DNA of 64,000 nt from Nitrospina sp. (GTDB lineage: Bacteria; Nitrospinota; Nitrospinia; Nitrospinales; JACRGP01), in contig JACAVV010000028.1 in the NCBI GenBank assembly GCA_024648695.1, positions 1 through 64,000 of the forward strand. Reading direction: 5' to 3'. Of the stretch, positions 1 to 25,946 are shown piece after piece (position 1 is the stretch's first letter; the number at the start of each line of letters is the position of its first letter). Under the pieces are notes generated by a model that worked only from the letters and a program-made list of their open reading frames with translations, did no database searches and had not been told where the DNA came from. The translations under genes and the position numbers were made by a program.

Positions 1-129
1 TTTCCAAATCCACTTTTTATTTGCATCTTAAAGAGTGTGAGTTTAGGTTTAATCATAGAGATCAAGATCTCTATAAATTGCTACTAAAAATCATCAAAAA
101 ACGACCTCTTAACTAGTCTTGTACCATTA

Positions 130-1311
130 TCAATTAACCAGATAGGGAGCAGGGCTATCAGCCCATATTCCTATCCATTCATTTTGATAATCGGGATCGT
201 GAAGAATCAGCCAACTCCTTTTGGTCAATTTTCCTTTTTGTAAAGTGTTTTGAATCACAGGAATTGCTTCATCAAGTTTTTTTACAGCCAAGTCAATATA
301 AGAATAGCGTAGTCCCGTTCCCGTGCCGATCATTCGCCCCTGCCCATTTAAAGCTAACTCCAGAGCGTCCTCAATGCTGGCCTTGTCTTCGAATAACTCC
401 TGATCCAGATCTTCTGAGCTTCCGTCCATTTTTAGATAGAGAAAAATTTCTCCATGGTTGGAAAAGCGTTCTGCCGAGAATGTGGTTCTCTCTTCGTGCA
501 TCGCTCTAAAAAGTGCCTCTGAAACAAAGCGCGCCACAAACAAATCTTCCTTGAACGCATAATCCTTTTTCTTTTCCGGTTTTAAATTCAAAACGACCCA
601 GGGGTCCTCCTCGAAATCTTCGTAATACGGTTTCCTCGGCAAGGTTGATTTTATTTCCTCTATCCTTTTCTGTACCTCGGCCGCTAAATGATTTAAAGAT
701 ATGGCGTCTTTGTTTCTCACTTTTAAAAACCCGATATTCCTAAACGGAGGCTGTTCTTTCACTTCAATGAAACCCACCCATTTTTCAAAAGTTTCCTCTC
801 CGAGAAGGCGTTCGGTTATAAAGCGGAGTTTGTCGAGTTGGGTTTTCTTATTGTCTTTAAATCGACTGTAACAGGTAATCTGGATCCTGTTAAAATCATC
901 GACGGCAGTTTTAAAATCGATGCTGGATAAATCCGGCCATTGATAGATGGCTTCCGTCATCAAGCTGGTCTGCTTGATACTTTGCGGCAAACGATATTCA
1001 TAAAACTCGAAGTGTTCCAGTTCCGGGGCTTCCCGGAGAATATACTTGATGAGAGATCTAAGTTCCTTCCGTGATCCGGAGGTTATTACCAACCGATGCT
1101 TTTTTTTCAATCCCGGACCAAATTCCCACATAATTCTGGCATCGATAGACTGAAGCGTATTCCGCATCCAGGACACTAAATCAAACTCATTTTGCAAACA
1201 CTCCGAGAAATACAAATGAAGGTCCTCTTGATTCTCCTGAAATGAGGTCCACCATTTTCGAACTTCACTTTTTTGACTCTGAGTAATGGATCTTGAAAAG
1301 AGATCATGCAT
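130..1311 (-). CDS. Hypothetical protein, 393 aa
   Basis: I do not recognise this protein. It is a soluble-looking polypeptide without signal peptide or membrane segment, rich in charged residues. Around residues 70-110 the pattern of a hydrophobic strand, a helix and then APELEHFEFYEYRLP loosely recalls DUF695-like proteins, in which a similar stretch precedes an aromatic-rich strand; this is only a resemblance. The start is an ATG, and the stop lies at 130-132. It is transcribed away from purE, and the 129 bases to the left edge hold nothing I can identify. Coding use looks normal for the window. Confidence 0.75.
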   Translation of the reverse strand: MHDLFSRSITQSQKSEVRKWWTSFQENQEDLHLYFSECLQNEFDLVSWMRNTLQSIDARIMWEFGPGLKKKHRLVITSGSRKELRSLIKYILREAPELEHFEFYEYRLPQSIKQTSLMTEAIYQWPDLSSIDFKTAVDDFNRIQITCYSRFKDNKKTQLDKLRFITERLLGEETFEKWVGFIEVKEQPPFRNIGFLKVRNKDAISLNHLAAEVQKRIEEIKSTLPRKPYYEDFEEDPWVVLNLKPEKKKDYAFKEDLFVARFVSEALFRAMHEERTTFSAERFSNHGEIFLYLKMDGSSEDLDQELFEDKASIEDALELALNGQGRMIGTGTGLRYSYIDLAVKKLDEAIPVIQNTLQKGKLTKRSWLILHDPDYQNEWIGIWADSPAPYLVN

Positions 1312-20669: not shown

Positions 20670-22049
20670 TCAAATGCGTTTCTTATTAGCCCGATGGATT
20701 TTCAGAACTCGATCTACTAGTTCTGTTACGTTCGGGGCTAGGACTCGAATCATTTCTTCTTTGCCCATACCACCAACATCGTAAATGATATCGGGAACAA
20801 AACCGCATTTCAGGATCGTTGTTTCTGTACCCCATTCCAATGAAGAACCTTCTTTCACCTTTACATTTTTTGGCTCGTCCGCGCGGTTAAAGGAGGCGAT
20901 GCTGAACTTTAGCTTTTTGCAAGCGTTCAAAATGGCCTCTGTATATTTTATATTGATCACAGCCCGCTTGCTTGAATCATATTTCATTGCGGTCAGCACA
21001 ATGTTGGCTACATGCCGTGAAGCACCAAATGCGGGTGATGCGAAAGTATTAATATCTTCTCCCACTTTAATGATGCGGCCAGGGATGCCCAAAACGTCGT
21101 CATGATTGCGAGCGCTTTTCAATCCGACTCCCATATTGGTTTGAACTTCCGGGACAAGATCGCCGATTTTGTGATCCTTCAAGGTTTGCAATCCGGCACT
21201 CATTTCCTGAAAAAGTGCCCAGCGCTCTGCATCCTGATAAAGCGATGCCAAAGGCTCCACACTCCCCATTCCTTCAGCAGGTTGCACATTTCCCAGAATA
21301 GCTTTCTGAATGAAAACCTTTGCTGACCGCACTGCCGATTCCAGCGAATCACCTTGCGAGAGCTTCCCCGCAATTGCAGCAGACAAAACACATCCGGTAC
21401 CATGAAGGTTTTCCTTTACCAGTCTCTCAGACTCCAAAACCAATCCTTTTTTCCCGTCATAGAAAAAGTCGTCCGGATTTCCCTTGGAATGACCACCTTT
21501 GATAAGAACGTTTCGGGCTCCCAGTTTACATAAGGCTCGGGCGGCTTTTAACTTTTGCCGCGAGTCTGAAGCTTTAACTCCTGTCAAAGCCTCGGTCTCC
21601 GGCAGGTTGGGAGTGACTAACAATGCCAAAGGCAACAGTTTTTCCTTGAGCGCTTCCACGCCTTTTTTGGAAATCAAACGTTTACCGGAAGACGACACGA
21701 TCACCGGATCCACCACCAGGTTTCTGACCCGGTTATTTTTTAGTATTTTGGCAACGATTTCGACAACCTCTTCATTTCCCAGCATTCCCGTTTTAACAGC
21801 TTGCGGTTTGCGGTCGGCAAAAAGAGCGTTCAATTGGTTTTCGACCACTTCCCCCGGCAAATGATGGGTATTCACCACGCCATGCGAATTTTGCGAGGTA
21901 ATGGAAGCGATGACCGATTCACCAAACACTCCCAGCGAAGCAAAGGTTTTAGTGTCTGCCTGAATTCCTGCGCCACCACTGGAGTCAGAACCGGCAATGG
22001 ACAGGGCTAATGGAACCGAATTTGATTTCGACTGATTTTTTGTATTCAT
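20670..22049 (-). CDS. thiD: ThiDN: HMP(-P) kinase fused to thiamine-phosphate synthase ThiN
   Basis: Bifunctional thiamine enzyme. The N-terminal half (about residues 12-265) is ThiD, which phosphorylates hydroxymethylpyrimidine and its phosphate; it shows SIAGSDSSGGAGIQAD and the C-terminal LHGTGCVLSAAIAG. The C-terminal half (about 285-455) is ThiN, an alternative to ThiE that joins HMP-PP and thiazole phosphate; seen are PAFGASRHVANIVL, RAVINIKYTEAIL and VPDIIYDVGGMGKEEMIRV. The ThiDN fusion is best known in archaea and some bacteria. I chose ATG at 22049 (459 aa) over an upstream TTG. It is 63 bases behind glmS. No thi-box riboswitch is visible. Confidence 0.92.
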   Translation of the reverse strand: MNTKNQSKSNSVPLALSIAGSDSSGGAGIQADTKTFASLGVFGESVIASITSQNSHGVVNTHHLPGEVVENQLNALFADRKPQAVKTGMLGNEEVVEIVAKILKNNRVRNLVVDPVIVSSSGKRLISKKGVEALKEKLLPLALLVTPNLPETEALTGVKASDSRQKLKAARALCKLGARNVLIKGGHSKGNPDDFFYDGKKGLVLESERLVKENLHGTGCVLSAAIAGKLSQGDSLESAVRSAKVFIQKAILGNVQPAEGMGSVEPLASLYQDAERWALFQEMSAGLQTLKDHKIGDLVPEVQTNMGVGLKSARNHDDVLGIPGRIIKVGEDINTFASPAFGASRHVANIVLTAMKYDSSKRAVINIKYTEAILNACKKLKFSIASFNRADEPKNVKVKEGSSLEWGTETTILKCGFVPDIIYDVGGMGKEEMIRVLAPNVTELVDRVLKIHRANKKRI

Positions 22050-22112
22050 GGAATTTAATGTATAAGGTACACCGCACAAAGCGCGGTTCAATTAATAACT
22101 GAAAATGACAGC

Positions 22113-23938: not shown

Positions 23939-25153
23939 TTATCCTCTTCGCCCTGTACCGACCGAGTAACGGGCCGGAACGATTTTACCGTGGGGAACGA
24001 TGGTCCCCGGTTGTATCGAATTACCCGCACCGATCACTACATTGTCGCCTATAAAAGCACCCAGTTTGGTTCGGCCTGTGGGATACGAACTTTTTCCATT
24101 TTTTACCGTCACCGGTTTCCAGTCCACGTTCCGGTTCACCGTCATGGTCCCGGCCCCGATATCCGCGTTCTCCCCCAATACGCTGTCGCCGATGAAGGAC
24201 AAGCGCCCGATGCGGGTGTTATCGAGAACCACACAGTTTTTCAATTCCACACCATAACCGACCGAACAATTGTCGCCGACGGCGGTGTAACTGCGTATCA
24301 ATGAATTGTTGCCGATATAGCATCCTTTACCAATACAACACGGACCTTCCAGAACCGCGCCGGCTTTTATCATAACGTCGTCTTCGATACGGACGATTCC
24401 CTGAATGGTGACATTGGCTTCCAGCGTCGCGGTTTTTGCGATTGATGACTTCTCCCAGGAATCCATAATAATCTTGTTGGCTGTTAAAATTTCCCATGGG
24501 AATACGATGTCCATCCAGTCCTCTTCCCACATGGATGCGCGCAATCCGTCGTCCTTCACCATTGCCTTCAGCGCGGCTTCCATTGACTTGTTGTTTTTCT
24601 CCAACAGGTCGAAAAAGGTGGATGGCAAAATATAAACTCCAGACAAAACGTAATTGCCCAAATCGTTCCCCTTGGGTTTTTCTATAACCTTTGTGATTTT
24701 CATTTGTGCGTTCAGGAAAACATTTCCGAACATAGCGTTGGATGGAGGCAGGCAAATAGAGGCGACCGGACTCTTGAAAAAATGAAACGATTGCTGAACC
24801 TTCGAGAAAATGTTGGATGCGGTCAGCGTATCGCCATAAATCAAAAGGAAATATTCACCGGGAACGATTTTGTTTTTCACTTGAAGAATCGCGTCCCCTA
24901 TTCCTTTAGCCGACTTTTGCTCGAAGTATTGTACATTGATTTCGTTATTGGCCAACTCGCCAATGCGTTCAATGAGGGATTCCTTTTGATGCCCAACCAC
25001 AACGAAAATGTCGTTGATGCCGGAATTCCTGAGAAGCTCCAGGTTGCGGTCAAACAGGTATTGCCCCGCCAGACGCATCATGGGAATAGGACGTGTGTTG
25101 GTAAAAGGCTTCAGGTGAGACCCTTTTCCTGCGGCAAGAATGACTGCTTTCAT
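23939..25153 (-). CDS. Archaeal-type bifunctional sugar-1-P acetyltransferase/nucleotidyltransferase
   Basis: Protein of 404 aa with an N-terminal nucleotidyltransferase domain (about 1-230, LAAGKGSHLKPFTNTRPIPMM) and a C-terminal left-handed beta-helix of hexapeptide repeats (about 245-390). This layout and the TRPIPMM signature resemble archaeal GlcN-1-P acetyltransferase/UDP-sugar pyrophosphorylases. It lies between a GlmU uridylyltransferase domain and glmS, so it probably acetylates GlcN-1-P and may also transfer UMP. The nucleotide-binding start GKGSHLKP differs from the usual GxGTRxxP, so the transferase half may be weaker or altered. Confidence 0.82.
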   Translation of the reverse strand: MKAVILAAGKGSHLKPFTNTRPIPMMRLAGQYLFDRNLELLRNSGINDIFVVVGHQKESLIERIGELANNEINVQYFEQKSAKGIGDAILQVKNKIVPGEYFLLIYGDTLTASNIFSKVQQSFHFFKSPVASICLPPSNAMFGNVFLNAQMKITKVIEKPKGNDLGNYVLSGVYILPSTFFDLLEKNNKSMEAALKAMVKDDGLRASMWEEDWMDIVFPWEILTANKIIMDSWEKSSIAKTATLEANVTIQGIVRIEDDVMIKAGAVLEGPCCIGKGCYIGNNSLIRSYTAVGDNCSVGYGVELKNCVVLDNTRIGRLSFIGDSVLGENADIGAGTMTVNRNVDWKPVTVKNGKSSYPTGRTKLGAFIGDNVVIGAGNSIQPGTIVPHGKIVPARYSVGTGRRG

Positions 25154-25169
25154 GGCATCATGACCTTAT

Positions 25170-25946
25170 TCAGACCCTAGGAGGTTCCGGGACCCTGAAC
25201 TGTTCGGGGTTTTCTTTAACAATCTGCTCGGCGCGTTTCAAGTCGTCAAGGGTATTGATTCCTAAAATTTCATCTGCATCGTTTGTGAACTCAGCTACGA
25301 CCTTATGTTGGTGATTTACCATATATTGAATCGTATCGGTCAAATAGTATTCCTTCTGAGCGTTGTCGTTGCCCAGCGACGATAACGCCTTAAATAACAA
25401 ACAGTTATTAAAACAATAAATTCCCGCGTTGTATTCGTCAATAGTTTTTTCGGTTTCATCGCAATCTTTATTTTCGACAATGCGTATCACCTGTCCTTGA
25501 GGATCTCTTACAATCCGACCGAAATCTTTTAGTTCAGTCGTTTTAAGGACCAGCAAGGTGCAATCTGCAAATGACTTTCTATGGGTGTCCAGCAGATTTA
25601 ATAGTGTCCCGGATTTCACTAAAGGCATGTCGCCACACAAAACCAAAACATCCCCCTCGAAGTCCTTGAGTACAAGCTCTGCCTGCTGTACCGCATGCCC
25701 GGTGCCCAATTGTTCTTCCTGCAAAACGCACTCAATATTTTCATGCGCAAAACGCGACTTGACTGCATCGGCTTGATATCCCACAACCACCAAAACGCGC
25801 TCGGCCTGGAGGGGTTTCAGCGATTCCAAAACAAAAGAAAGTAAAGGTTGACCCTTTAAAGGATGAAGCACCTTTGCTGAAACCGATTTCATTCGGGTTC
25901 CCTTTCCTGCCGCTAAAACGATTACAGCAAGTGGATTATCTGGCAT
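25170..25946 (-). CDS. glmU: GlmU uridylyltransferase domain, stand-alone
   Basis: GlcNAc-1-P uridylyltransferase (258 aa), matching only the N-terminal half of bacterial GlmU. The signature LAAGKGTRMKSVSAKVLHPL, then QEEQLGTGHAVQQA, VLCGDMPLV and the substrate-binding EYNAGIY are clear. The left-handed beta-helix acetyltransferase half of normal GlmU (about 450 aa) is absent, and the reading frame ends cleanly. The neighbouring archaeal-type protein 16 bases downstream can provide it. This gene starts the glmU-(AT/NT)-glmS-thiDN series. Confidence 0.9.
   Translation of the reverse strand: MPDNPLAVIVLAAGKGTRMKSVSAKVLHPLKGQPLLSFVLESLKPLQAERVLVVVGYQADAVKSRFAHENIECVLQEEQLGTGHAVQQAELVLKDFEGDVLVLCGDMPLVKSGTLLNLLDTHRKSFADCTLLVLKTTELKDFGRIVRDPQGQVIRIVENKDCDETEKTIDEYNAGIYCFNNCLLFKALSSLGNDNAQKEYYLTDTIQYMVNHQHKVVAEFTNDADEILGINTLDDLKRAEQIVKENPEQFRVPEPPRV

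Follow-up and report, generated by a model that had tools for sequence, protein, structure and literature searches.

A GlmU-like protein with altered active sites encoded between a truncated GlmU and GlmS: a possible regulator of UDP-GlcNAc synthesis in Nitrospinota

Peptidoglycan and lipopolysaccharide cannot be made without UDP-GlcNAc, and GlmU, an enzyme of its synthesis, is an established drug target. In a 64,000-nucleotide stretch of DNA from Nitrospina sp. (the window), which belongs to the Nitrospinota, major marine nitrite oxidisers, a gene for what looks like half of GlmU stands next to one for a two-domain, archaeal-type relative of the same enzyme. This raises the question of what the second protein contributes. 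The initial annotation saw a division of labor, with a truncated bacterial GlmU for uridylyl transfer and the archaeal-type protein for acetyl transfer. The evidence below instead suggests that the latter probably does neither.

The operon and its recurrence

Both reading frames were confirmed on the minus strand, and the order of transcription is GlmU-N (P0002), P0001, and GlmS (P0003), with stop-to-start gaps of 16 bp and 5 bp, respectively (Table 1). Where no end cuts the locus, P0001 has GlmU-N as its immediate upstream neighbor in 55 of 62 Nitrospinota loci and GlmS as its immediate downstream neighbor in 59 of 61; these counts add G041 and G070, read locus by locus, to automated tallies of 54 and 58. 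A layout that recurs in this way across the phylum is not a matter of chance. The exceptions are G002, G003, G030, G070, G072, G073, and G075 for GlmU-N and G067 and G069 for GlmS.

Downstream of glmS by 21 bp, and hence probably in the same operon, is a 473-aa reading frame that, judged by eye, resembles a hydroxymethylpyrimidine kinase fused to a ThiN-type domain. In one relative (G041; L041/L034), the P0001 gene is interrupted by an in-frame TAA, which is present in two matching records.

Table 1. Features of the operon and of related loci
Feature	Position	Strand	Basis
GlmU-N (P0002), uridylyltransferase domain of GlmU only, 258 aa, probable GlcNAc-1-P uridylyltransferase	25170..25946	-	TIGR01173, residues
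P0001, GlmU-like two-domain protein, 404 aa, probable double pseudoenzyme	23939..25153	-	TIGR03992, 2ggo/ST0452, altered catalytic residues, dN/dS
P0001 nucleotidyltransferase domain	residues ~1-235		
P0001 left-handed beta-helix	residues ~236-404		
P0001 His13 codon, at place of catalytic Arg of GxGTRxxP (ST0452 R13, E. coli GlmU R18)	25115..25117	-	
P0001 Ile23 codon, at place of catalytic Lys (ST0452 K23, E. coli GlmU K25)	25085..25087	-	
P0001 Arg317 codon, at place of acetyltransferase His (ST0452 H308, E. coli GlmU H363)	24203..24205	-	
P0001 Phe320 codon, at place of acetyltransferase Tyr (ST0452 Y311, E. coli GlmU Y366)	24194..24196	-	
GlmS (P0003), 606 aa	22113..23933	-	TIGR01135 640 bits, active-site alignment
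473-aa reading frame downstream of glmS	20670-22091	-	judged by eye
P0004, stand-alone left-handed beta-helix protein, 255 aa	G000 contig C8 68971-69735		
GlmM-like phosphohexomutase, 714 aa, TASHNP site	L110 5740-7884 (G000 contig C8)		
Reading frame with GlmU/IspD-like and weak CofD/YvcK-like regions	G000 contig C15 54107-56080 (L002)		
Archaeal Arch_GlmU paralogues upstream of glmS	L217 7444-8658; L218 2832-4001; L222 2832-3998		
Second, canonical-type GlmS (Nitrospinota families f8, f9)	L069 55-1875; L195 975-2819; L198 1218-3059		

GlmU-N as the probable uridylyltransferase

P0002 matches the GlmU model TIGR01173 over positions 2-239 of 452 with 266.5 bits, below the cut-off of 366.85; with that score and a match to the first half only, it falls outside the two-domain family, and the description of the first gene as just the uridylyltransferase half of GlmU holds. 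Across 64 distinct Nitrospinota homologues, the equivalents of E. coli R18, K25, Q76, G81, T82, D105, E154, and N227 are present in all ungapped rows, and N169 is kept in 63 of 64, with a single N169S. With its active site intact, GlmU-N is a probable GlcNAc-1-P uridylyltransferase. It thus corresponds to the first 239 positions of the bifunctional E. coli GlmU and shares the catalytic residues checked; unlike that enzyme, it lacks the beta-helix half, the acetyltransferase candidate of Nitrospinota is a separate and unlinked protein, and the operon holds a third, GlmU-like protein with altered active sites.

Replacements in both active sites of P0001

P0001 matches the Arch_glmU model TIGR03992 over positions 2-387 of 393 with 313.6 bits (cut-off, 292.1), and its nearest solved structure is ST0452 of Sulfolobus tokodaii (PDB 2ggo; E 6.6e-58), to which it is homologous over the whole length. 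The reading of the second gene as an archaeal-type nucleotidyltransferase joined to a beta-helix is therefore sound. In what follows, we take R18, H363, and Y366 of E. coli GlmU and H308 of ST0452 to have catalytic or active-site roles. To compare the active sites, 66 P0001 rows were aligned with 12 bifunctional enzymes from archaea (ST0452 and 11 plasmid-borne copies), and gapped rows were skipped at each site.

In the nucleotidyltransferase domain, the GKGSHLKP motif was confirmed in the sequence, and the catalytic Arg13 is lost in all 61 relatives, its place being taken by H, N, K, D, or G (Lys in nine). Lys23 is lost in 51 of 61; the residues found at this position are I, N, Q, L, S, V, and K, with Lys retained by one row from the window's order and by all nine rows that fall outside that order. 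Further, Thr80 has become Ile (61/61; Ile85 in the window), and Asn157 has become Leu (62/62; Leu170 in the window). These replacements suggest that uridylyl transfer has probably been lost, as the departure from GxGTRxxP had led the initial annotation to suspect. The domain retains both metal-binding Asp residues, Gln73, Glu146, and Lys147, the EKP motif being kept; since the metal Asp residues and EKP persist, relatives from outside the window's order still have Lys23, and nine relatives have a Lys at the place of Arg13, some residual activity is possible.

The beta-helix is altered no less. His308 and Tyr311 of ST0452, which align with H363 and Y366 of E. coli GlmU and are found in all 12 references, are replaced in P0001 by Arg in 64 of 64 relatives and by Phe in 63 of 64, respectively. 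Two arginines that are likewise invariant in the references have also largely gone: none of 63 relatives has Arg at the place of Arg333, and 6 of 63 have it at that of Arg352. The equivalents of Lys296, Glu294, and Asn331 are retained. In the literature on other GlmU proteins, one study names E348 and H362 as key catalytic residues of the Staphylococcus aureus enzyme (PMC11947611), and another describes contacts of Lys26 and Asp114 in that of Mycobacterium tuberculosis (PMC9105790).

P0001 thus has the full-length score of an Arch_glmU protein and differs from ST0452 and its kin in that the Arg, usually the Lys, and the His and Tyr of the two sites are replaced. Taking these sequence comparisons together, we infer that P0001 is likely to be inactive in both GlmU reactions, and its annotation as a bifunctional enzyme is probably wrong. 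A literature search for GlmU as a pseudoenzyme found no report. A structure model of P0001 built from four sequences reached a pLDDT of 45.5, too low to be of use.

Selection on P0001 and conservation of its pocket

A decaying pseudogene is ruled out by the wide retention of P0001 and its low dN/dS. Of eight pairs, seven had a dS that could be measured, and in these the ratio ranges from 0.015 to 0.183. The values indicate strong purifying selection and are below those of GlmU-N in 7 of 7 pairs; GlmS, available for six of the seven, gave 0.032 to 0.069.

The ligand pocket was mapped onto P0001 from a list of E. coli GlmU ligand-site residues that we take to be correct, with N227 placed two columns off the likely metal Asp. 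Leaving aside the catalytic Arg and Lys, the 14 mapped positions vary less than the 226 remaining columns do (one-sided p = 2e-5), and positions 13 and 23 lie at the 77th and 89th percentiles of variability. A conserved pocket around a variable catalytic pair is what would be expected of a ligand-binding pseudoenzyme; in this mapping, which covers the P0001 family only, the conservation could also come from structural constraint alone. As two ligand contacts are uniformly replaced (Thr by Ile and Asn by Leu), UDP-GlcNAc may not be the ligand.

A phylum apparently without fused GlmU

The initial annotation had suggested looking for a full-length glmU elsewhere in the genome. Nothing exceeds the TIGR01173 cut-off in the window's genome (97% complete), and a search of 77 Nitrospinota genomes likewise gave no match above it, as against 9 of 14 control genomes that do have one; the phylum appears to be without any fused GlmU. 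The three GlmU-related proteins are widespread: P0001 orthologues (at least 50% identity) are found in 66 of 77 genomes and 30 of 31 high-quality ones, the exception among the latter being G028; GlmU-N (at least 100 bits) in 65 and 27, the high-quality genomes without it being G001, G028, G030, and G039; and P0004, a stand-alone beta-helix protein (at least 44% identity), in 67 and 30, the high-quality genome without it being G067. Automated tallies (70, 76, and 73 of 77, respectively) are higher because they count weaker cross-matches among the three families. Literature searches found nothing on a split GlmU in Nitrospinota and only an unrelated match for the phylum together with UDP-N-acetylglucosamine.

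Of the high-quality genomes lacking GlmU-N, G001, G028, and G039 have P0001 or GlmS at a contig end, the GlmS match of G028 beginning at the very end of its contig. G030 (97% complete) has P0001, GlmS, and P0004, with GlmU-N found neither beside P0001, which lies there on an unbroken 159-kb contig, nor elsewhere in the genome. If P0001 is inactive, this genome is left without a recognized uridylyltransferase; either GlmU-N lies in the unassembled part, or another protein makes UDP-GlcNAc there.

P0004 as the candidate acetyltransferase

P0004 is unlinked to the operon and matches the C-terminal half of both TIGR03992 and ST0452. The acetyltransferase residues His and Tyr of GlmU are kept in 68 of 68 distinct rows (one of them a second fragment of the gene in the window's genome, G000, and two from outside the phylum), and the equivalents of Lys296 and Asn331 are kept wherever a row reaches them. 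P0004 thus has all four residues (His, Tyr, Lys, and Asn) looked for in a GlcN-1-P acetyltransferase, and we infer from them that it has this activity. The ACETYLTRANSFERASE may be P0004, which is a better acetyltransferase candidate than P0001. It is accordingly quite probable that the two GlmU activities are split between GlmU-N and P0004.

In most loci with enough flank, P0004 lies directly downstream of a GlmM-like mutase of about 700 aa, which scores 123.6 bits against TIGR01455 (cut-off, 447.55); G001, G002, G003, G045, and G047 show no mutase match beside it, and none is seen in the truncated locus of G056. In G000, the upstream neighbor is a GlmM-like phosphohexomutase of 714 aa whose site reads TASHNP. 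No glmM over the family cut-off is found in this genome.

GlmS and its known controls

The window's GlmS scores 640 bits against TIGR01135, well over the cut-off. As its glutaminase Cys1 and isomerase residues are intact and it is the sole glmS in G000, it should be active. A 23-row tree sets it in a separate, deep-branching clade that includes neither the archaeal nor the bacterial GlmS sampled, which speaks against a joint archaeal origin with P0001. The earlier idea of an operon of mixed origin is therefore upheld only in part. P0001 itself probably supplies neither half of the split GlmU.

Known controls of GlmS were sought. No GlmR and no RapZ exceeded the cut-off in the 77 Nitrospinota genomes, and the Bacillus subtilis control was also unmatched by either search. 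This bacterium has GlmR and the RapZ-like YvcJ, according to PMC13046274; hence, these searches can miss, and the absences carry less weight. The glmS ribozyme was found in none of the 77 genomes, nor in the window between 20000 and 28500. One weak CofD-related match (40 bits) is present in G000. On contig C15 of this genome, one reading frame joins a nucleotidyltransferase domain of GlmU/IspD-like type to a region with a weak resemblance to CofD/YvcK.

Archaeal relatives beside glmS

A contig scan for relatives of P0001 returned only Nitrospinota (five loci), so that ST0452 and plasmid-borne copies are the basis of the comparisons with archaea. Among seven archaeal glmS loci, three have an Arch_GlmU paralogue directly upstream of glmS (those of Methanohalobium, Haloferax lucentense, and Halobaculum), and the other four have none; the Methanohalobium paralogue is annotated as bifunctional. 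Like P0001, the three are GlmU-like proteins beside glmS with the acetyltransferase His position or region altered; unlike it, they keep the nucleotidyltransferase Arg and Lys. In a 26-row tree with few references and nine open branches, they form a clade apart from P0001, and a derivation of P0001 from them is not supported. The phylogeny that had been called for thus separates P0001 from these paralogues, within the limits of so few references. With different losses in separate clades, the placement of a GlmU-like protein next to glmS seems to have had more than one origin, again on few references.

A proposed role for P0001 and its alternatives

What, then, might P0001 do? We propose that the operon-encoded GlmU-N would carry out uridylyl transfer and that P0004, encoded elsewhere beside a GlmM-like mutase, would acetylate GlcN-1-P. 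P0001 would be a former bifunctional archaeal-type GlmU that has had both active sites replaced but has retained its fold and most of its pocket for nucleotide sugars. On this simplest account it would be a partner of the pathway and not one of its enzymes: it would bind a pathway metabolite, at first guess UDP-GlcNAc, at either or both of the former active sites and, as a subunit of GlmS and/or GlmU-N, regulate them by feedback, perhaps with a scaffolding function as well. For this scheme of a metabolite-sensing pseudoenzyme as a whole, our belief and our doubt are about equal; a regulatory role as such, given inactivity in both reactions, has an even or slightly better chance.

Two known systems offer parallels. 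GMPPA, as described in PMC11228364, is a non-catalytic paralogue of GMPPB that binds GDP-mannose and inhibits GMPPB. P0001 resembles it in combining a nucleotidyltransferase domain with a beta-helix, in having lost catalytic residues while being conserved, and in standing beside an active partner; as a presumably inactive relative of sugar nucleotidyltransferases, it might work likewise without being a member of that family. The differences are that GMPPA acts on GDP-mannose in animals, that P0001 is not a close paralogue of GlmU-N, and that its ligand binding is putative. GlmR (YvcK) of B. subtilis, according to PMC13046274, binds UDP-GlcNAc and interacts with and stimulates GlmS in a feedback mechanism. 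It differs from P0001 in belonging to the unrelated CofD-related family, in being itself a uridylyltransferase, and in being over the cut-off in none of the 77 Nitrospinota genomes. If P0001 is a regulator, it would be a GlmU-derived pseudoenzyme for amino-sugar feedback, parallel to GMPPA in GDP-mannose synthesis.

Several other roles are conceivable. P0001 might sense nothing and simply lend the truncated GlmU-N the trimeric beta-helix platform that it lacks, for which its preserved helix fold and the adjacency of the two genes in 55 of 62 loci would speak. We consider such a pure scaffold unlikely: the association of P0001 with GlmS (59 of 61) is broader than that with GlmU-N, its nucleotidyltransferase pocket is more conserved than the rest, and G030 retains it without any GlmU-N. 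The lack of GlmU-N in this last genome would fit with an enzyme of changed chemistry or substrate, performing some other nucleotidyl or acyl transfer, with Arg317 and the remodeled pocket conferring the new specificity. Both metal Asp residues are kept, and the replacements Arg317, Ile85, and Leu170 are uniform, as would not be expected of random decay. Yet positions 13 and 23 hold varied residues, without any new consensus in place of the catalytic pair, and we regard a new enzymatic activity as rather improbable.

The division of labor, with P0001 giving up uridylyl transfer and serving as the GlcN-1-P acetyltransferase of the pathway, draws on its sharing an operon with glmU-N and glmS, its score over the TIGR03992 cut-off, and the retained Lys296, Glu294, and Asn331 equivalents. 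Against it stand the near-universal replacement of the acetyltransferase His and Tyr, the loss of the two arginines invariant in the archaeal references, and a stand-alone homologue in 67 of 77 genomes, P0004, with that His and Tyr intact wherever aligned. The proposal in its original form is thus not supported by the residues of P0001, and we hold it to be very unlikely.

The regulatory reading of P0001 could be carried further. The whole phylum would have dismantled GlmU and turned an archaeal-type copy into a doubly inactive UDP-GlcNAc sensor that controls GlmS and GlmU-N in place of GlmR, RapZ, or the glmS ribozyme, and GlmU-like proteins with altered acetyltransferase sites would have come to lie beside glmS at least twice, here and in Euryarchaeota. 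This extended version is tentative, and we think it more likely to be wrong in some part than right throughout.

A second type of GlmS

Some Nitrospinota loci encode a second, canonical-type GlmS (Table 1). These proteins start with MSG rather than MCG, so that the glutaminase nucleophile Cys1 is Ser. The genomes concerned carry another GlmS too, of the P0001-linked kind where seen. In two of the three loci, L195 and L198, the MSG-type GlmS adjoins GlmU-N.
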